Source of the DNA: Candidatus Saccharimonadota bacterium
GTDB lineage: Bacteria; Bacteroidota; Bacteroidia; B-17B0; Aurantibacillaceae
NCBI GenBank assembly: GCA_903970545.1
Contig: CAJCJB010000381.1
Span: 1-42,735, forward strand
DNA: 42,735 nt
Direction: 5' to 3'
Shown here: positions 18,505 through 34,447 of the stretch, piece after piece
How positions within the stretch are numbered: the stretch's first letter is position 1
Layout of the letters: every line of letters starts with the position of its first letter
Program-made: the position numbers and the translations under genes
The notes under the pieces: generated by a model
Database searches by the model: none
Seen by the model: the letters and a program-made list of their open reading frames with translations, nothing else
What the model was told of the DNA's origin: nothing

Positions 18505-19995
18505 CTAATTTTCTAGCCGCAATGGATATAATTTAATAGTGCCCAAATTATAAGTAGGTATTCCGTTTTCGGTAATAAGCGGTATTTTATCCCAATCAAA
18601 TTCCTGTCGGCAGCAACTCATTTCGGTTGCAGAAGTCATAGAATGATAAATCTTATAATTTCCGTAAATAATAAAAGAGCCATCTGCTTTTGAAAATGTT
18701 ATGTTTGAGTTTCCAAACCCCTGATCCCAACCCACAGCACCACCACCTTCAATAGGTTGACCACTATTTCCGTTTATCAATCTACCCTTAACGGCATATT
18801 GATTCAATCCATCGTAATTATAATAATTATCTCTACAATCGCATCCTTCAGTTTTTTGTTTGGTATCAAAGTTTTTAAATACGAATGCGGCAGATTTCAC
18901 TGTTCCGTTAATTATAAGATCTTTTTTAGAAGTGGCAGTAGTCCCTTTATTATTTACCAAGCCTAAAAAATTAGATTGAAACTGATACCATTGTGTATCC
19001 TTGTATTGCCACCAAGAGAAACCACTTGCACCACAATTTATGGCACGATGCAAAAACTTTAGTGCATACATTTTTTGCACATCATAACTGATAGAATCGT
19101 TATCAGCAGAAAAACCTGTTTCTCCAACAACCCAAGGAGTTTTTACATATTTACCGTACCAGTATATTTCATTTTCCACCTCTCCTTTATGAAACTCATA
19201 CGGATGGATAGAAAGAAAGTCTACATCCAATATATTGGGGTCCCATTCAAACATTTCCCGTGTGCCAGTTAAGCCAATAGTAAATAGTTGATTAGGCGCA
19301 TATATACGACTAAACTTTTTCCACCCCTTTACAATCGTAAATACATCTTCTTTTCTTCTCTCTGCGCGGTCAAAATACAAAGGTTCATTAAAAAAATCCC
19401 AGGCCAAAATCGCTTTTTCATCTTTAAACTGCTGCAAAAGTTTTGATACATAAGTATCTGTAAGGGCATTTATATCTGGTTCCTTTTTTGTCAAAACAAT
19501 GGACTTAAGGCCAACCTCATCCAACACTTTAAACATATCACCCAAAGCCTGAAAGTATTTTTCTAAAATCTCCCCTTCCAAAACAACCGTGGTATCTCTT
19601 CCAACATCAACAAATTTAGTAATGGCATTATGGTCTACTTTATATTCAGCTATTCCATATAATCTCACAGCATTAAAGCCAAGATCTTTTATCATTTGCA
19701 AATCAGCCTTTAGTCTTAGAAGAGCCGATTCTTTGGTATATATCAGTTTCTTATCGTCAAAACCTGTATTAGATGGCCTTATCCACATAGTATGGTTACC
19801 CATCATTAATTCTGTACCATAATTTAATATCATGGGATAAAAATCTTTGTCATCAAGTTTAAAGGTCTTTTCGTCCATATACACAAAACCGGGCTTGTGG
19901 GGAATCTCATGACGACACGAAGTGAAACCGCTAACCAGTAAGCAACTAAAAAAGGAGTAAATAAATAATTTACGAACTACATCTAAGAAACGCAT
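18505..19995 (-). CDS. GH5-like glycoside hydrolase lipoprotein
   Basis: A 496-residue lipoprotein: signal peptide with lipobox SGFTSC, Cys27. Residues about 40-345 are a TIM-barrel glycosidase of the cellulase / GH-A clan type, with RLYGIAEY at strand 2, AWDFFNEP giving the acid/base E204, SIHPYEFH, and WVVGETGFS giving the nucleophile E292, so both carboxylates are intact. Residues about 400-496 look like a carboxypeptidase-regulatory-like beta-sandwich (AVKGRLINGNSGQPIEG...KADGSFIIYG). The substrate is unknown; mannan or another beta-linked glycan is possible. It lies at the inner or outer membrane surface and is followed by the acyltransferase. Its own promoter faces away from the esterase gene. 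Confidence 0.75.
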   Translation of the reverse strand: MRFLDVVRKLFIYSFFSCLLVSGFTSCRHEIPHKPGFVYMDEKTFKLDDKDFYPMILNYGTELMMGNHTMWIRPSNTGFDDKKLIYTKESALLRLKADLQMIKDLGFNAVRLYGIAEYKVDHNAITKFVDVGRDTTVVLEGEILEKYFQALGDMFKVLDEVGLKSIVLTKKEPDINALTDTYVSKLLQQFKDEKAILAWDFFNEPLYFDRAERRKEDVFTIVKGWKKFSRIYAPNQLFTIGLTGTREMFEWDPNILDVDFLSIHPYEFHKGEVENEIYWYGKYVKTPWVVGETGFSADNDSISYDVQKMYALKFLHRAINCGASGFSWWQYKDTQWYQFQSNFLGLVNNKGTTATSKKDLIINGTVKSAAFVFKNFDTKQKTEGCDCRDNYYNYDGLNQYAVKGRLINGNSGQPIEGGGAVGWDQGFGNSNITFSKADGSFIIYGNYKIYHSMTSATEMSCCRQEFDWDKIPLITENGIPTYNLGTIKLYPLRLEN

Positions 19996-20139: not shown

Positions 20140-20994
20140 ATGCGTTTAAAAGTAATTTATAATGTGTTTTTTATTAGCGTGCTAGCTTGTTTTTTCTTTA
20201 CCTGTACATCACATGTAGTTTCTAATACAGGTATATCGAACACCCCTTTGTCAAAGGATAGTGCCTACGACGTATTTTTAGTAGCAGGTCAGTCAAATAC
20301 CTATTGGGGTTTGGGTTATGATTCTACTAAAGATAAAGGAGCAGATGATATCTACCAGCTTGGCAGACTTGAACCAAACAATTTAAAAATAATAGCCGCC
20401 AAAGAACCCTTGCATCATTTTAACCCTAAACCGGATAGAGTAGGTTTTGCACTAACTTTTGCTAAACTATATCAAAACTATATACAACATGCGCACAATA
20501 TTTTAATTGTGCCCTGCGGTATGGATAATACAGGGTTTGATGGTGAAGGTTGGCATAAAAAGGATTTTTTATATGATGATGCCCTTAGTCGAATTAATTA
20601 TGTGTTTAAAAAATATCCTAAAAGCAAATTAGTAGCTATACTTTGGCATCAAGGAGAAAAGGATGTAAATTACAAAGGCTACCAAAAAGATTTAGATACG
20701 CTGATTGTACAGTTTCGAAGAGAGATAATAACTGCAAGCAACAATACCCCTTTTATTCTAGGTGGTATGGTACCCTATTGGACGGATCTAAAAGAGGTTC
20801 GAAAAAAACAACAGGCTATTATTAGTAATACTACCAACCGTTTACCCAACATAGGCTATGTTGACCCCTACCTACCTACTAGAATACAAAAACCAGACAA
20901 CACCCTTGATACCGTGCATTATAATGCCAACGGACAAAGAGAAATGGGTAAGCGCTATTTTGAAGTGTTTAAGAAAATGAGTGAACATAACTAG
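20140..20994 (+). CDS. Sialate O-acetylesterase-like (SASA/CE6-type) exported esterase
   Basis: A 284-residue SGNH-fold esterase. A signal sequence covers residues 1-22 (ACFFFTC; lipidation at Cys22 is possible but the lipobox is poor). The catalytic serine is S52 in VAGQSN, the WHQGEKD motif is near residue 170, and the Asp/His pair is D257 and H260 in DTVHYNANG. Enzymes of this kind remove O-acetyl groups from sialic acids or acetylated polysaccharides such as xylan. It sits opposite the acyltransferase operon and 31 bp before a GT2, so deacetylation of the locally made glycan is plausible. A TATCTTTA sequence at 20075-20082 is a weak promoter candidate. Confidence 0.8.
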
Positions 20995-21025
20995 TATAAG
21001 TGATTATAGTATAAAAAAATTAAGT

Positions 21026-21763
21026 ATGCCTGCAAACGAAAAATTATCCATTATTATTCCTGCTTATAATGAAGCAAGAACTATTCACCTGATTTTAAAT
21101 AAAGTTTTAGACGTTACTCTCTTAAATAATATAGAAAAAGAAATCATTATTGTAAACGATTTTTCTACCGATACTACAAAAGAAGTTATTGAACAATATA
21201 TAACCCAACACCCAAGTAGCAATTTTCAACTTTTTAATCAGGAATTTAATCAGGGCAAAGGTGCTGCTTTACATAAAGGTATATCCATGGCTACTGGCAA
21301 TTACCTTATTATTCAGGATGCTGATTTGGAATATGACCCTAATGAATACAACGTTTTATTACGTCCTATGGTAGAGGGGCATGCCGATGTGGTTTATGGT
21401 TCAAGGTTTATGGGAGGAAAGCCGCACCGTATTCTTTTCTTTTGGCATAGCATAGGCAATAAATTTCTAACCTTTTTATCTAATATGCTTTCCAATCTTA
21501 ACTTAACAGATATGGAAACCTGCTATAAACTTTTTAGAACAGAAATCATTCAGAAAATATTTTTGAAAGAAAAAAGATTTGGATTTGAGCCAGAAGTAAC
21601 TTCAAAAGTAGCACGTATATCCAATATAAGAATTTATGAAGTAGGTATTTCTTACTATGGCCGTACGTATGAAGAGGGTAAGAAAATAGGTATGAAAGAT
21701 GCCATACGCGCTTTGTATTGTATGATAAAATATAGTTTCTTCGACCGTAAGCTTTATAAATAA
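21026..21763 (+). CDS. Family 2 glycosyltransferase (polyprenyl-phosphate sugar type)
   Basis: I choose the ATG at 21026 (245 residues, [17 protein letters not shown]). The frame also opens at a GTG at 20981, overlapping the esterase gene, but the extra residues do not look like a GT2. It has the GT-A core: [25 protein letters not shown], the metal-binding DADLEYDP and GSRF. The closest type is dolichyl/undecaprenyl-phosphate mannosyl- or glucosyltransferase (DPM1-like), lacking C-terminal membrane segments. It would make a lipid-linked sugar donor, which fits with the GT-C-like protein encoded at 25107, a family that uses such donors. Confidence 0.85.
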
Positions 21764-21920: not shown

Positions 21921-23585
21921 TTACTTAGCCAGTATTAATTTAAACTTTTCGTTCTTACCTAAAGTATTACCATTTGCAAAAATCTGTTGCGTTTTTTCAT
22001 CTATACTTAAATACTTTCCATTGGCAGCTTTAAGTGTAATAAAATTATTAGCTAGTTTTTCCATTGTAAAAGTTTCCCATTCTGCTATCGCAACAGATGA
22101 GTTGGTTAGCACATTTGTACCAGCTAAGTTTGCAGATAAGAATTTAAGTTTATAAGAATATATAGCTACTTGACTATTTTCTAAATCTAAGAGTGAAAAA
22201 GTTTCCCAACCGGAGGATTGATCTCTGTTTGCCATAACAAGTCCTTCTTCCGAACCACCCGCACATAAATATTTATTATTAGATGCCTGCAATTGAATAA
22301 TTTTTTTATTTCTATATATGTTTTTTGCTTCATTTTTGATAGTATCAATAGGTGTATTCTTATTCCATTTAGGGTTACGCTTAATAAAATCTAAAATCCC
22401 ATTCAAAATTCCTTTATCAGATGCGTGGTCGAAATAAAAATCGGTCACGCCATAAGGAAAAATATGCATGGTTCCTATATTACCAAAAAGAATTACATAA
22501 TCTGCGCTTTGTAATTCATCTATTATGCTGACGTTTTTATTTAAATCAATAGTAGCAAAAATATCTGTAGGAATGGGTTGCCATTGTATAAAATGTAAAG
22601 GATATGCATAATCTGAGAAATAAAACCAAAATCTGGAATCTTCTGAGAAAATATTTTTTAATATTTGTAGGTTTTGTAAAGTCCAGAAAAAGCTGTCTCC
22701 TATAATAATAACCTTTGGTTTGTAATTTCTACTTGTTGATTGAACAAATTGGTATTTTGGGTAGACGTACTGTGGCTGACCAACATTGAAAAACAGATTT
22801 AAAGAAGTTTCAATATCTGCATCAGAATGACGCGCGGTATCAGAAAATTCGACACCTATTCTTTTAAATTTTGGAAATGACTTCTTCAATGATTTTTCCA
22901 TGTAACTTATCAAAGAGTCCTGCACAAAAGAAGCGGCGTATAGAGACCAATGAAATCCGGTCTTTGTAAACATGGGATATTGATACTCATTTCTTAGTTT
23001 ACTTATATATGGACAAAAATCAATAACAGGGATTCCTTCTTTGCGATACCCTTTAATAAAATCATCATAATTTGTAAATGATTTTTGTTTTCCCAAATAT
23101 TCAGCAGGAAGGTAATCGGGATAAATACCTTCTTTAGAAGGTGCTATAACCGTTAAAAAATGCCCTCCGTTTTTTTCTATGCTTTCCTTTAAAAACTTAA
23201 CTTTTTCAATAACCGCCTTGTTGTGTTCCTTTCCATTATAAATAATTCCTAATGTTTTTTCAACGGATGGAAAATTAAAAATGATTCCATTTTTTCCTCC
23301 AAGATTATCTGCTACACTTAAATCATTAAATAAAATATTATCTATACTGTTTCTGGTTTTTACAAAAAACCCTCTAAAACCAAAATTGTAGTTCTCATAA
23401 TTTTCAAAATGTTTTTGAAACTTTAAAGCATTTAATGAATCTACGGAAAAAGCAGGTATGGTTGGTTTTATAAAAGCGCCTGTTAATTTTGGTTCTTTAA
23501 GAAACCTTGTTAACTCCTGAAAAATTGGTAACCAAAGTAATGCAAAAAGAAAAACAAACAATACTATTTTCAGTTTATGCTGCAT
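21921..23585 (-). CDS. AlgX/AlgJ-like SGNH protein with C-terminal fascin-like beta-trefoil
   Basis: A 554-residue protein with an N-terminal signal-anchor (residues 5-22). Residues about 60-400 resemble the AlgX/AlgJ SGNH acetyltransferase domain: HFLTVIAPSKEGIYPDYLP, FTKTGFHWS (H212, W213) and the serine motif IIIGDSF (S298). The Asp that precedes the His by two in AlgX/AlgJ is G210 here. Residues 428-554 form three repeats of about 40 residues (NKYLCAGG...WETFSLLDL; LKFLSAN...WETFTMEKL; GKYLSID...EKFKLIL), the fascin-type beta-trefoil often found in sugar- or protein-binding modules. It starts 4 bp after the AlgI-type MBOAT gene, its usual partner, and would receive acetyl groups for periplasmic polysaccharide O-acetylation. 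Confidence 0.8.
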   Translation of the reverse strand: MQHKLKIVLFVFLFALLWLPIFQELTRFLKEPKLTGAFIKPTIPAFSVDSLNALKFQKHFENYENYNFGFRGFFVKTRNSIDNILFNDLSVADNLGGKNGIIFNFPSVEKTLGIIYNGKEHNKAVIEKVKFLKESIEKNGGHFLTVIAPSKEGIYPDYLPAEYLGKQKSFTNYDDFIKGYRKEGIPVIDFCPYISKLRNEYQYPMFTKTGFHWSLYAASFVQDSLISYMEKSLKKSFPKFKRIGVEFSDTARHSDADIETSLNLFFNVGQPQYVYPKYQFVQSTSRNYKPKVIIIGDSFFWTLQNLQILKNIFSEDSRFWFYFSDYAYPLHFIQWQPIPTDIFATIDLNKNVSIIDELQSADYVILFGNIGTMHIFPYGVTDFYFDHASDKGILNGILDFIKRNPKWNKNTPIDTIKNEAKNIYRNKKIIQLQASNNKYLCAGGSEEGLVMANRDQSSGWETFSLLDLENSQVAIYSYKLKFLSANLAGTNVLTNSSVAIAEWETFTMEKLANNFITLKAANGKYLSIDEKTQQIFANGNTLGKNEKFKLILAK

Positions 23586-23589
23586 TTAT

Positions 23590-25011
23590 TTAAAACCTAA
23601 AATATATAAAGGGATTAAAATCACTACAGGTTATTTCTCCAATGCAAAGGGTCATACATAAAATAATTAACAATACTCTAAAAGCAGTACGCCCAAAGCT
23701 TATATTTTGCAAACCCGCACTAATTTCTGTTTTCTTTGCTTTATATATTATAGGAATAAAAGATAAGATTGTTGCCAGTATGATTATAAATACTAAATGA
23801 GTAGAAAAATAATGCTCTTCTTTTGAAGAAAAGGAAAACATCTTTCTTAAAAAGCATATTGCCTGATTCATATTTTTGGCACGAAATAACACCCAGCCTA
23901 TTACAACAATAAAAAAAGTAAACAGAACTCTAAAGAAAACACCAATTTTTGATGTGATTTTAAGAAGGAATAAGCGCTCGATGGCAAGAAAAAAACCATG
24001 ATAAGCTCCCCATGCAATAAAAGTCCATTCGGCACCATGCCATAAACCAGAGATTAAAAACACCACCCATAAATTAAAATATAAACGTGCGCCAGATACT
24101 TTATTTCCTCCTAAGGGTATGTATAAATAATCGCGCATCCACCTGCTTAAAGAAATATGCCACCTGCGCCAAAAGTCGGTAATGCTTTGAGCTATATAAG
24201 GATTATTAAAATTTTCAGGAAATGTAAAGCCCATCATTTTGGCAAGCCCGATTGCCATATCTGAATAACCTGAAAAATCAAAATATATTTGAAAGGTATA
24301 GGTAATTGCCCCCATCCACGAAAGAACAAAATCTAATTCATCTGCTTGTAAAGTAAATATCCTGTCGGCTTCTTTACCTAAAACATTCGCAATTAACACT
24401 TTCTTAGCCAAACCAATCGCAAATCGCAAAAAACCAAGTAATACTTCATCCACATTAAACCTTTTATCTCTCCCTTCAATTTGGTCAGAAATTTCGTTAT
24501 ACCTGATAATGGGACCCGCAATAAGTTGAGGAAATAATAATATATAAAGGGCATAATCTGATATTTTCTTCATGGGGGGTTTTACTCCTCTGTACACATC
24601 TATTATAAAACTTAATTGATGAAAAGTAAAAAACGAAATTCCTATAGGCAGGGCAATCTGTAAAAGTTCTATTGGTTTTATTCCAAAAGAACCCAACATG
24701 GCATTTGTATTATCTACAAAAAAGTTAGCGTATTTAAAATATAAAAGAAAGGCTAAGTTAATAATTACAGAAAAAACCATCAAACGTTTTTGTAAGCGGT
24801 TTTCTTTTAAACCAACAATAATGTGCGCTATGCAAAAATTAAAAATAATTGTCTCTAATAATGCAAATACAAATTGTGGTGCCCCCCATGCATAAAAAAA
24901 GATGCTTGCAAAAACAATGAAATAATTCTTCAGGAATACTGGTATCAGAAAATAAGCAGTAAAAAATAAAGGCAGAAAATATATTAGAAAAAAGGTGCTG
25001 CTAAAAAGCAT
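23590..25011 (-). CDS. AlgI-type MBOAT O-acyltransferase
   Basis: A 473-residue multi-pass membrane protein of the MBOAT family. It has all the AlgI landmarks: FFYAWG, LYFKYANFF, LPIGISFFTFHQLSFIIDVYRG, FPQLIAGPI, DFSGYSDMAIG, the FWRRWHISLSRWMRDYLYIPLGG block (H285) and the catalytic H325 in SGLWHGAEWTF. It passes acetyl groups from cytoplasmic acetyl-CoA across the membrane to an AlgX/AlgJ-type protein, here encoded directly downstream. Alginate itself is not implied; the same pair acetylates many polysaccharides. The 95-bp gap upstream has no strong promoter box, so it is probably transcribed with the membrane protein gene before it. Confidence 0.92.
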   Translation of the reverse strand: MLFSSTFFLIYFLPLFFTAYFLIPVFLKNYFIVFASIFFYAWGAPQFVFALLETIIFNFCIAHIIVGLKENRLQKRLMVFSVIINLAFLLYFKYANFFVDNTNAMLGSFGIKPIELLQIALPIGISFFTFHQLSFIIDVYRGVKPPMKKISDYALYILLFPQLIAGPIIRYNEISDQIEGRDKRFNVDEVLLGFLRFAIGLAKKVLIANVLGKEADRIFTLQADELDFVLSWMGAITYTFQIYFDFSGYSDMAIGLAKMMGFTFPENFNNPYIAQSITDFWRRWHISLSRWMRDYLYIPLGGNKVSGARLYFNLWVVFLISGLWHGAEWTFIAWGAYHGFFLAIERLFLLKITSKIGVFFRVLFTFFIVVIGWVLFRAKNMNQAICFLRKMFSFSSKEEHYFSTHLVFIIILATILSFIPIIYKAKKTEISAGLQNISFGRTAFRVLLIILCMTLCIGEITCSDFNPFIYFRF

Positions 25012-25106
25012 ATTTATTCAATCTTATCTGTAGTAAATACCAATTTAAATTTCTAATTATTACTCATAGTGTTTTCAAAAATTAGTTTGCCTTTTGTTTA
25101 ACTATT

Positions 25107-26618
25107 TTAATTGCTAACTGATTTAGATTGTGGGGCTTTAATATATTTCACTAAGTAATTATTCGCTGATTGATAATTATGGTATAAAATATCTGTTGAT
25201 TGATAATGATGTATAATTTCCCATTCTTCATGAGGAAAATTATTAAAATCCCTCTCTACAAAATAAAAATACTCGTTTTCGTACATTTCTGCCTGAATGT
25301 AATCCATAGTTACCCAATCCCACTTCCAAATTTTTACATAAAATTCAAGTGTAGAAAAAAACATCCAATACCCTCCCAAGGTAATTTTTGCAGAGGGATC
25401 ACATTGTTTAATCTTACCAAGGTCTGTCAGCATATCTTTTGTGTATCTTTCACATGACCACTTATAATACCAGCTTAAATTAAGCGAATAACAAGTATGC
25501 CAAAAAAACAAAGTAGTTAAAAGAACTAATAATCCAGAAGTTATATACTTATAGGAATATACTAATATATCTATTATAAGAAAGCTGCCCATTAAGATAA
25601 ATATGGGGTACAAAAAAACAGCAAACCTTTCCATCATAAAAGGGGTATCAAGAAAGAAATGTTGTAAAACAGAAACCAATACAATTAAAAAAAGGTTCAG
25701 CCCAAAGAAGAGAACAAATTTTTGAGTTAAGTTGATAGGTTTCTTTCTGAAAATATATAGTACGCTTCTTATCATAAAAAGGACAGAGAACCCAACAACC
25801 AATATTTTACAACCTATTATGATATAGTATTGATAGGGTGAAAAATAGGAAAACGTTTCTGCCATTGAACCTACAGTATCAATCCAAAAGCCATCTATAC
25901 CTCCAAAGAAGAGTAGTTTGAGTTGAATTATCTTTCGGATAGGTTCATAGCACAAGGCTAATAAAAGAAAAAAAAAGATAAGGTTAATATAATTTGCCTT
26001 CCATAACCCTTTGAAAGAAAAATTGTGTTTAAAAACAAAAAACTGAAGAAGGTTGTGGGTAAAAATAAAAACAAGAACCAAACTAATAAGGGCAAAATTT
26101 GCAATGGCAGCTAGACAAACAAACAATAGAGTCAAAATATGATATTTGTTTTTTTGATCTTCTATGTACCTACAGTAAAAATAAAACCCGCTCATCATTA
26201 ATGCAATGGCAATACCATAGCCACGCGCTAATGAAAAGAAATCTATCATAAACGGGTTTCCATTCATTAGGATAAAAAACAAAATCACTACCGGTGGTTT
26301 ACTATATCTATTAAATATTTTAAATGAAAAAATAAGATAGAAAATATGCGCAATAATATTGGGTAAGCGAAGTATAAGTTCTGATGTGCCAAACAATACC
26401 TGAAAAAGCTTCATAAGAAGAGTATTCAGAATATGATTGTTGGTACCTGGGTTTTGGTATGAAATAATGTCAATAAAAGAGTCATTTACCCAGTGAAGAT
26501 AAGTATCGCTCTCATCCATAGTAAAAGAAGCATGAGAAGCTTTATATATATCAAAAACAATGAGTATAATTGTTATAAGAATGAAAGCTACAGAATTTAT
26601 TTTTTTCGCAAAATTCAT
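25107..26618 (-). CDS. Multi-pass membrane protein, GT-C glycosyltransferase-like
   Basis: A 503-residue protein with about ten to twelve hydrophobic segments. After the first one comes a loop ASFTMDESDTYLHWVNDSF containing acidic residues (DESD), the position of the catalytic acidic motif in GT-C enzymes of the ArnT/PMT class, followed by GTNNHILNTLL, also common there. The C-terminal 100 residues are non-membrane (KIWKWDWVTMDYIQAEMYENEYFYFVERD). I infer transfer of a sugar from a polyprenyl-phosphate donor, perhaps that made by the GT2 at 21026, onto an extracytoplasmic acceptor. Strongly AT-rich (15 of 60 bases G or C in the line starting 25981). Gap to the holin-like gene is 6 bp. Confidence 0.65.
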   Translation of the reverse strand: MNFAKKINSVAFILITIILIVFDIYKASHASFTMDESDTYLHWVNDSFIDIISYQNPGTNNHILNTLLMKLFQVLFGTSELILRLPNIIAHIFYLIFSFKIFNRYSKPPVVILFFILMNGNPFMIDFFSLARGYGIAIALMMSGFYFYCRYIEDQKNKYHILTLLFVCLAAIANFALISLVLVFIFTHNLLQFFVFKHNFSFKGLWKANYINLIFFFLLLALCYEPIRKIIQLKLLFFGGIDGFWIDTVGSMAETFSYFSPYQYYIIIGCKILVVGFSVLFMIRSVLYIFRKKPINLTQKFVLFFGLNLFLIVLVSVLQHFFLDTPFMMERFAVFLYPIFILMGSFLIIDILVYSYKYITSGLLVLLTTLFFWHTCYSLNLSWYYKWSCERYTKDMLTDLGKIKQCDPSAKITLGGYWMFFSTLEFYVKIWKWDWVTMDYIQAEMYENEYFYFVERDFNNFPHEEWEIIHHYQSTDILYHNYQSANNYLVKYIKAPQSKSVSN

Positions 26619-32344: not shown

Positions 32345-33220
32345 ATGAAACACTCGTTCATTATAATTCTATCCGTTATAAGTATTAACTTTTTTGCACA
32401 AACAAATCCGGAAGATTCTTTAAAAACAGCTATACAAAATTATACTAAAGCCATTGCTTCAAATCCTAAAAACCTTAACGCTTATTTTCATAGGGGTTTA
32501 AGTAAAGGATTGTTAGATGATTATAAAGGTGCCATTGAAGATTTTACCAAAGTAATTGAATTAGACCCTAAAGATACCAGTGCGTATTACAACCGCGGGT
32601 TTTGTAAAGGAAACATAGAAGACTACCAGGGTGCGATAACAGACTTAAACAAAGCTATTGAATTAGACCCTAAAGACCCTGCCCCTTATTATTACAGAGG
32701 CTTGGCTAAAGTTAATCTGGAAGATAATAAAGGCGCTATGCTTGATTACAATAAAGCCATTGAACTGGATGCAAAGTATGAAGAGGTTTATTTTAGCAGA
32801 GGTTTATGCAAAAGTATTTCGGCAGATTATCAGGGGGCGATAAAAGACTATAGCAAGACGATTGAATTGAATCCTAAATTTGTTGATTCATATTACAACA
32901 GAGGGTTATCTAAAAGCAAATTAAAAGAGTATAAAAGTGCTATACAGGATTATAATAAAGCTATTGAACTGGATGCTGAACATGTAGGGGCTTATTTCCA
33001 CAGGGGTTTATGCGAAAATATGTTGGCAGATTATACGAATGCGATAAAAGATTATACCAAAGCGATTGATTTAAACCCTAAAGATGCTTTGTCTTATTTC
33101 AACAGAGGAAATGCTAAACAAAAAGCAGGAGACAATCAGGGGGCTTGTTCTGACTGGAAAAAAGCAGATGAGTTGGGTGATACAGAAGCTAAAGAGGTTA
33201 TTACTAAAAACTGTAAATAA
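32345..33220 (+). CDS. Secreted TPR-repeat protein
   Basis: A 291-residue exported protein: signal peptide about 1-18 (INFFAQ), then seven full TPR units of 34 residues, each with YYNRG / YxGAIxDYxKAIELDPK, giving a superhelical array. It ends with a GACSDWKKADELGD...ITKNCK cap that recurs in the next gene and resembles the one at 38794. Sel1/TPR arrays like this bind peptides or assemble envelope complexes; no specific partner is evident. The repeats are close to each other at DNA level. It is followed at 27 bp by a paralogue. Confidence 0.85.
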   Translation: MKHSFIIILSVISINFFAQTNPEDSLKTAIQNYTKAIASNPKNLNAYFHRGLSKGLLDDYKGAIEDFTKVIELDPKDTSAYYNRGFCKGNIEDYQGAITDLNKAIELDPKDPAPYYYRGLAKVNLEDNKGAMLDYNKAIELDAKYEEVYFSRGLCKSISADYQGAIKDYSKTIELNPKFVDSYYNRGLSKSKLKEYKSAIQDYNKAIELDAEHVGAYFHRGLCENMLADYTNAIKDYTKAIDLNPKDALSYFNRGNAKQKAGDNQGACSDWKKADELGDTEAKEVITKNCK

Positions 33221-33247: not shown

Positions 33248-34447
33248 ATGAAAAAAATAGTTCTTTCTGTTTTTTCGCTTCTTATCTTTAATAAAACTAT
33301 AGCTCAATCAAATGATATTGACACCTCAAAATATGCTGACTTAAGAAACCGGATAAACGATCAGTCTTTTTTTATAACTCTTGACAGCAACAATGCAAAT
33401 GCATACAGGAAACGTGCTGAATTAAAATTTCAAATCAAAGATATAAAAGGAGCTATTAAAGATTTCACCAAAGTAATTAAGTTAAACCCAAAAGATGCTG
33501 TTTCTTATTATGACAGGGGTTACTCTAAAGAAGAGTTGAAAGACTATAAAGGTGCTTTGCAGGATTATACCAAAGCTATTCTGTTAGACCCCACAGAACC
33601 TACTTTTTGTTTAGAAAGAGGAATCTGTAAATATGAATTATCAGATTATAAAGGAGCTATACAAGATTATACAAAGGCAATTCAGCTAAGTCCTAAAAAT
33701 GATATAGCGTATTATAACAGAGGGAACTCTAAAGACAAATTAAAAGATTATGAAGGGGCTATACAGGATTATAATTATGCAATAGATTTAAACCCTGCTA
33801 ACCCAATGGCTTTTTATAACAGAGGCTTATCTAAATATGATATAGAAAATTATGAGGATGCTATACAAGACTATAACAAAGCCATAGAACTGAATACTGA
33901 TTTTTTTGATGCTTATGTGAACAGAGGAGATGCGAAGAATAAATTAAAAAATTACACAGATGCCGTGGCTGATTACACGAAAGCAATTGAATTGAATCCA
34001 GCCAGTTTTGATGCGTATTTTGACAGAGGAAACTGCATGGACGCGTATGGAGATTATGCAGGTGCTATGAAAGATTATGACAAAGCCATTGAATTAAACC
34101 CTAAGTATGCTGAGGCTTATAATAATAGAGGTTTATGCAAAAGCAATTTACAGGATTATAAAAACGCTATAGAAGATTTTAACAAAGCAATTGCGTTAGA
34201 ACCTAAATACATAGATGCTTATTACAATAAAGGGAACACAACCTACTATTTAAAAGACTATAACAGCACCATAACTAATTTTACTAAAGCAATAGAACTT
34301 GACCCTAAATACGGCAGAGCTTATCACAACAGAGGGATTGCCAAATACGATTTGAATAATAAAAAAGAGGCTTGTGCAGATTGGTTAAAAGCAGCAGACT
34401 TAGGAATTAAAGAAGCCGGAGATTTGATAAATAAATATTGCAATTAA
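33248..34447 (+). CDS. Secreted TPR-repeat protein, paralogue of the preceding gene
   Basis: A 399-residue protein: signal peptide about 1-19 (NKTIAQ), then ten TPR units of 34 residues (YYDRG, YYNRG, YFDRG, YHNRG and so on) and the same C-terminal cap (KEACADWLKAADLG...NKYCN). It differs from the previous gene mainly in repeat number, which points to tandem gene duplication with repeat gain or loss. Probably periplasmic or surface-exposed. No promoter box was found in the short gap, so cotranscription is likely. Confidence 0.85.
   Translation: MKKIVLSVFSLLIFNKTIAQSNDIDTSKYADLRNRINDQSFFITLDSNNANAYRKRAELKFQIKDIKGAIKDFTKVIKLNPKDAVSYYDRGYSKEELKDYKGALQDYTKAILLDPTEPTFCLERGICKYELSDYKGAIQDYTKAIQLSPKNDIAYYNRGNSKDKLKDYEGAIQDYNYAIDLNPANPMAFYNRGLSKYDIENYEDAIQDYNKAIELNTDFFDAYVNRGDAKNKLKNYTDAVADYTKAIELNPASFDAYFDRGNCMDAYGDYAGAMKDYDKAIELNPKYAEAYNNRGLCKSNLQDYKNAIEDFNKAIALEPKYIDAYYNKGNTTYYLKDYNSTITNFTKAIELDPKYGRAYHNRGIAKYDLNNKKEACADWLKAADLGIKEAGDLINKYCN

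Follow-up and report, generated by a model that had tools for sequence, protein, structure and literature searches.

We analysed a stretch of 42,735 nucleotides (hereafter the window) in which a gene for an SGNH-trefoil protein lies beside a gene for a membrane O-acyltransferase of the MBOAT kind. The genes of this locus, with an MBOAT motif and a probable gene remnant, are the following:

18505-19995, minus strand: secreted protein resembling clan GH-A hydrolases (WDFFNEP and GETG motifs)
20981-21763, plus strand: GT2, polyprenyl-phosphate-sugar-synthase-like (DPM-like; Pfam GT2, 1.6e-34)
21921-23585, minus strand: SGNH-trefoil gene, 554 aa (open reading frame list; Pfam ALGX and trefoil models)
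23590-25011, minus strand: 473-aa MBOAT (membrane O-acyltransferase), which partners the SGNH protein (Pfam MBOAT, 1.5e-36)
23593-23610, minus strand: FIYFRF, matching the acyl-shuttle motif FxYxxF, at the C-terminus of the MBOAT (sequence)
25042-25105, minus strand: probable in-frame remnant of a lost trefoil, 3' of the GT-C-like gene (protein-level shuffle)
25107-26618, minus strand: polytopic GT-C-like protein without a trefoil (sub-threshold Pfam PMT_2 hint only)

The initial annotation had placed an open reading frame at 21921-23585. These coordinates are exact; the strand, which had been left unstated, is minus. The 554-residue product reads, in order, as an N-terminal anchor, an AlgX/AlgJ-type SGNH domain and a C-terminal beta-trefoil:

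23508-23576, minus strand: N-terminal hydrophobic anchor, about residues 4-26 (single hydrophobic segment, sliding window)
22386-23408, minus strand: AlgX/AlgJ-type SGNH region, about residues 60-400 (Pfam ALGX; profile of relatives)
21924-22304, minus strand: C-terminal beta-trefoil of the CBM92/fascin group, residues 428-554 (Pfam, PDB sequence match, profile, model and Foldseek)

Pfam ALGX (PF16822) matched residues 121-289 with an E-value of 4.5e-11 and 43.4 bits (cut-off 26.5), and a profile built from 18 relatives matched AlgJ (4o8v) at 5.4e-14 and AlgX (4knc) at 7.5e-7. The earlier assignment of an AlgX/AlgJ SGNH domain, with FHWS at residues 211-214 and GDSF at 296-299, is thus borne out by the Pfam match. 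A predicted structure of the full-length protein had a mean pLDDT of 52.5, and its SGNH half, covered by two alignment rows only, was unreliable; the SGNH fold therefore rests on the profile matches. Residues 2-30 are predicted to form a helix in this low-confidence model.

We compared the active-site positions of the SGNH domain across 37 sequences:

22956-22958, minus strand: G210, where AlgJ has the Asp of DxH (Gly, Ala or Ser in 35/37 sequences)
22950-22952, minus strand: H212, the invariant His of TGFHWS (H212 and W213 in 37/37 sequences)
22815-22817, minus strand: D257, part of a DxD motif and a candidate replacement for the catalytic acid (Asp in every one of the 35 sequences that lack DxH)
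22692-22694, minus strand: S298 of GDSF, putative nucleophile (37/37 sequences)

The Ser and His of the triad are present in the window protein and the DxH Asp is absent (GFH). Because the DxH motif is missing, we file the protein as AlgX/AlgJ-related and as neither AlgX nor AlgJ. With G210 in place of an Asp that AlgJ and AlgX need, the catalytic acid is uncertain. Position 257 was Asp in 35/35 AlgX-type sequences without DxH and Asn in the 2/2 that bear it. The catalytic acid of the Bacteroidia AlgX-like proteins may have migrated, with D257 taking over.

An MBOAT 4 bp upstream had been reported as well, and the gene is indeed there: it runs from 25011 to 23590, leaving a gap of 4 bp. The window MBOAT terminates in FNPFIYFRF, and NPFIYF[RK]F ended every partner MBOAT C-terminus that we read. 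The acyl-shuttle motif FxYxxF within this ending is the one defined in PMC12148441. An adjacent MBOAT with a C-terminal FxYxxF marks the two genes as a putative MBOAT-SGNH acyltransferase pair. Among the other neighbours, the DPM-like GT2 has relatives at 66% identity or more close to many trefoil genes. It recurs beside about half of the trefoil loci, as does the GH-A-like secreted protein (relatives at 36-79%). The latter (18505-19995) had no Pfam or PDB matches, and its product possibly represents an unclassified hydrolase family of the pathway. Elsewhere in the window, the adjacent genes at 32345-33220 and 33248-34447 encode products that are 49% identical across 264 residues.

The C-terminal part was modelled on its own (131 residues, 424-554) from ten related tails, and the predicted structure has 12 strands (pLDDT 93.4, pTM 0.87). 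When Foldseek was run with this model, fascin single trefoils and the C. pinensis CBM92 (E about 1e-9, TM 0.83-0.89) ranked above FGF-type, designed and lectin trefoils. The CBM92 structures 7zoh and 7zon aligned at TM 0.87-0.89 (E about 1e-9), and fascin scored about equal to CBM92 by fold. Sequence comparisons led to the same group. Pfam beta-trefoil models matched residues 450-552 (DUF7910, 5.2e-13; FRG1, 2.5e-8; Fascin, 6.6e-8), and the top PDB sequence match, over residues 423-549, was to a GH18 enzyme of Chitinophaga pinensis, in its CBM92 module (1.4e-9). The sequence profile of the tail ranked CBM92 first (2.3e-14) and fascin second (2e-13). The structural check proposed in the initial annotation thus returned a trefoil of the fascin/CBM92 group and not of the ricin-B/CBM13 kind. 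The label "fascin-type" holds for the fold group but undersells the tail, which among characterised modules is closest to CBM92, a family known to bind sugar. The tail and 7zoh share ~26% identity, and a 37% minimum holds within the CBM92 family; we call the module CBM92-like.

Two other trefoil identities were rejected. No ricin-B or CBM13 chain was found up to E 10 in the profile search with the tail, and QxW is absent, the tail's only Trp residues being those of GWETF and EWETF; a ricin-B/CBM13 trefoil is thereby ruled out. Nor is this fascin proper, which bundles actin with four tandem trefoils: here a single trefoil sits on a bacterial membrane-anchored protein. Of 30 pattern matches in viral contigs, none was a relative.

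CBM92 repeats each end in WExF, in which the Trp stacks on the sugar and the Glu bonds O3 and O4; Trp mutants lose binding, and some members are without the Trp at one or more sites (PMC11039641). We aligned 33 tails and located the corresponding positions in the window protein:

22197-22208, minus strand: alpha-site WETF (residues 460-463), with R454 six residues ahead
22068-22079, minus strand: beta-site WETF (residues 503-506), with S497 where R is usual
21942-21953, minus strand: gamma-site NEKF (residues 545-548), Trp lost

WETF had been described in three repeats, which is correct for repeats 1 and 2, but repeat 3 reads NEKF. Across the family, the alpha site has W in 24/33, E in 31/33 and R or K in 30/33 tails; the beta site has W in 28/33, E in 28/33 and R or K in 24/33. 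At the gamma site W occurs in 0/33 tails, E in 24/33 and F in 31/33. The window tail holds both Trp-Glu pairs, with an Arg at alpha and none at beta (S497). The alpha and beta W and E that correspond to CBM92 contacts are among the better-kept positions of the 33 tails (mean commonest-residue fraction 0.51), and the site residues are kept although the tails overall share 30-50% identity. As judged from the alignment, the tail family is a two-site branch, with a gamma site that is predicted to be dead.

The equal rank of fascin and CBM92 by fold, and their near equality by sequence profile, would suit a trefoil that is a protein-protein dock, put to a fascin-like use in clustering the GT-C-like, MBOAT and SGNH enzymes into a single complex, with sugar not its ligand. 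The occurrence of tailed enzymes side by side within one locus, described below, would suit it too. However, the positions kept at alpha and beta are those with which CBM92 contacts sugar, fascin bundles actin with four trefoils and there is one here, and lone secreted lipoproteins also bear tails. We therefore consider a dock unlikely.

We then compared the architecture with that of related proteins. Among 60 relatives, both halves are common only to the window protein and one genome of the same genus (G001); the others either align up to about residue 420 only or share the trefoil only. No tail was present in 29 of the 37 AlgX-type proteins compared, all 29 of them outside the trefoil-bearing groups. 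These comprise 28 proteins from the relatives, including a paralogue from the window's own genome that adjoins an MBOAT of its own, and one from a trefoil locus (G205). The last 130 residues, which might have been part of the normal AlgX-like family, are thus absent from its ordinary members, and these 29 tail-less relatives rule out that the trefoil belongs to that family.

A search for SGNH-trefoil genes beside MBOAT genes in other genomes, also proposed earlier, was successful: the two directly adjoin each other in G099, G144, G296, G429 and G469, as in the window. In G001 the SGNH-trefoil gene is present and the contig ends before any MBOAT is visible. In all, seven genomes from three families have the fusion. 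In a maximum-likelihood tree of the SGNH domain, from which G469 is left out because it was found later, the six SGNH-trefoil sequences from three families formed one clade with 100/100 support. Given seven genomes, three families and a single SGNH clade, a one-off fusion or an assembly artefact is ruled out. A second SGNH type (SGNH2, with a DDHW motif) acquired the tail separately (G002, G296). The MBOAT of G099 lies in two overlapping frames (L048:8007-9256) that share 84% and 67% identity with the window MBOAT; this split probably reflects a frameshift in the gene or the assembly, the assembly being favoured.

Which other proteins carry this trefoil? A scan of 84,980 species together with searches of Bacteroidia genomes showed that polytopic membrane proteins bear the closest trefoils, as C-terminal tails. 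Several of these hosts passed the Pfam PMT_2 cut-off (G051, 66 bits; G144, 62 bits), and one weakly matched ArnT (5ezm, 0.0045). The others were similar to these hosts only or were without a Pfam match, so that several are called GT-C-like on the strength of numerous membrane segments and of transitive similarity. About 24 distinct tails scored at least 100 bits, and all were on membrane GT-C-like or SGNH proteins save one, which was on a 156-aa lipoprotein. Trefoils in other settings were also seen: at the N-terminus instead of the C-terminus of ArnT-like proteins (L050:4617-6884, L117:9065-11170), in small putative lipoproteins with little beyond the trefoil (L051:2685-3167, L056:4841-5311, L066:6878-7417, L116:5136-5627), and as six near-identical repeat units in a secreted protein on a Methanothrix-assigned contig (L058:764-2893).

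The tailed genes stand in rows. G144 has an ArnT-like-trefoil gene, an SGNH-trefoil gene, an MBOAT and a GT-C-trefoil gene, an arrangement of three tailed enzymes about a single MBOAT. The order in G296 is SGNH2-trefoil, MBOAT, SGNH-trefoil, MBOAT and GT-C-trefoil, and the row in G429 and G469 is GT-C-trefoil, MBOAT and SGNH-trefoil. Because the trefoil is common to GT-C-like membrane enzymes of the same loci, it is not special to acetylation. On whether the SGNH tails came from GT-C tails, a trefoil tree gave one supported branch only.

Mean tail identity was 51% within the same genome, 46% for the same host family in other genomes and 45% for different hosts elsewhere. The comparison of the same genome with different hosts elsewhere gave a p of 0.013, which serves as a guide only because tail pairs are not independent. 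Neighbouring genes of G296 encode SGNH proteins of two very different types whose tails share 84% DNA identity across 152 bp. These identities indicate that the tails of neighbouring genes recombine and are homogenised within a locus.

This pattern bears on a further possibility, namely that the trefoil binds cell wall or environmental glycans and merely anchors or stores the enzymes, with no relation to the acceptor that they modify. CBM92 has one ligand preference regardless of the attached enzyme (PMC11039641), and related genomes have standalone trefoil lipoproteins, both of which would agree with such a role. Yet the hosts are membrane-anchored already, the close subfamily is confined to biosynthetic-type membrane enzymes, and homogenised tails within a locus fit a locus-specific ligand, which makes simple anchoring quite improbable.

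The window itself may preserve a case of tail loss. In the sister genome G005, the gene neighbourhood is the same, and a 68%-identical relative of the window GT-C-like gene bears a C-terminal trefoil there. The window copy ends immediately before the tail, and a 64-bp probable remnant then follows in frame (25042-25105), where NTMSNN*KFKLV aligned to NTLGKNEKFKLI. Protein-level shuffling gave a p of 0.002 in the GT-C reading frame and 0.007 in any frame. The remnant DNA is in register with the trefoil ends. DNA alignments alone were not significant (p 0.08-0.93), and an equally high score came from one further non-coding stretch of the window, so that we call this sequence only a probable remnant of a lost trefoil tail. 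The apparent loss, and the occurrence of related GT-C-like genes both with and without a tail, would be expected of a mobile domain that hitch-hikes on the genes of the locus and is functionless there. The conservation of the site residues in otherwise divergent tails and the retention of the SGNH fusion across three families argue against such a passenger, and we hold it to be highly improbable.

Taken together, these results lead us to favour, with fair but not strong confidence, that an MBOAT-SGNH O-acyltransferase has the window protein as its extracytoplasmic half, and that its CBM92-like trefoil is a module shared by several exo-face enzymes of such loci, which holds the nascent surface glycan for them. 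The MBOAT would load cytoplasmic acetyl groups onto the Tyr in its own C-terminal FxYxxF, and the membrane-anchored SGNH protein would hand the acetyl, via its Ser, to the surface glycan. In PatA/PatB the MBOAT acylates itself on that Tyr, from which the Ser of the SGNH protein receives the group (PMC12148441). The alpha and beta sites of the trefoil would hold the acceptor glycan close to the active site, like the beta-sandwich CBM of AlgX, which binds the acceptor (PMC9487903). The architecture, the fold, the conserved sites, the recurrence and the common tail are observed; from these we infer that acetyl is the group moved, that the sites bind sugar, that the chain is the glycan of the locus, and that the trefoil's role is to hold it. 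A common tail would let several exo-face enzymes grip the same nascent chain. GT-C-like enzymes working on that side of the membrane carry the same tail in these loci, so its most likely target is the product that the enzymes of a locus have in common.

The recurrence of the tail on neighbouring enzymes suggests a single grip for a whole assembly line. We extend this, tentatively and at a little under an even chance, to a general scheme in which one interchangeable glycan-reading trefoil sits on consecutive exo-face GT-C-like enzymes and on one or two MBOAT-SGNH enzymes of a Bacteroidia surface-glycan pathway. There it would mark the nascent chain as the common substrate and give processivity. 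It would be an independent bacterial counterpart of the MIR trefoil of eukaryotic PMTs, the nearest precedent for the wider pattern, and recruited from a module family that otherwise serves polysaccharide degradation.

All the parts of this system are of known kinds. Descriptions of CBM92 concern almost exclusively hydrolases and lyases that break polysaccharides (PMC11039641), and in the open-licence literature searched we found no paper that reports GT-C or MBOAT-SGNH enzymes with a fascin-like or CBM92 domain; as far as this search went, a trefoil tail on such enzymes is undescribed in the open literature. A two-site branch of the CBM92 kind, as a recurrent tail of biosynthetic-type membrane enzymes, links the fields of degradation and biosynthesis. 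It predicts that every tailed enzyme of one locus acts on the same glycan, and the small soluble trefoil domain is a candidate probe for Bacteroidia surface glycan. If the scheme is true, it adds a second, independent GT-C trefoil with alpha and beta sites and no gamma, after the PMT MIR trefoil.

The tail shares with CBM92 (CpCBM92A/B, PDB 7zoi and 7zoh) the beta-trefoil and the WExF that closes repeats, and CBM92 is its best sequence match. It differs in having two sites instead of three, in the supporting Arg/Lys at alpha, where CpCBM92A/B have Ser, and in its hosts, which are membrane biosynthetic-type enzymes whereas those of CBM92 are secreted hydrolases and lyases. AlgX of Pseudomonas, which also works in an MBOAT pathway, likewise joins an SGNH acetyltransferase domain to a carbohydrate-binding-type domain at the C-terminus, but it carries a beta-sandwich CBM and the DxH Asp where the window protein carries a trefoil and GxH. 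The suggestion that a trefoil takes the place of the AlgX beta-sandwich agrees with the trefoil fold that the model and Foldseek give for the C-terminal domain. The window protein is anchored at its N-terminus, whereas AlgX is soluble in the periplasm. The MBOAT pairing and the active-site Ser and His are shared by AlgJ, PatB, DltD and other SGNH partners of MBOATs; the FxYxxF shuttle motif is found in PatA, as here, and is carried by DltX for DltB/DltD. AlgJ, which is without a CBM (PMC9487903), differs in the position of its catalytic Asp.

Eukaryotic protein O-mannosyltransferases are likewise GT-C enzymes with a lumenal trefoil that has alpha and beta sites and no gamma. Their MIR trefoil belongs to another trefoil family and sits within an internal loop, whereas the trefoil described here is a C-terminal tail that the GT-C-like enzymes share with a putative acetyltransferase. 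The ppGalNAc-transferases are Golgi enzymes with a QxW ricin-type trefoil and differ from the window tail in both respects. In PMT (GT39), the MIR trefoil takes a sugar (mannose) at alpha and beta, the gamma site is missing, and processivity is affected, and in the ppGalNAc-transferases, mentioned in the same paper, a trefoil lectin guides a glycosyltransferase (PMC7759382).
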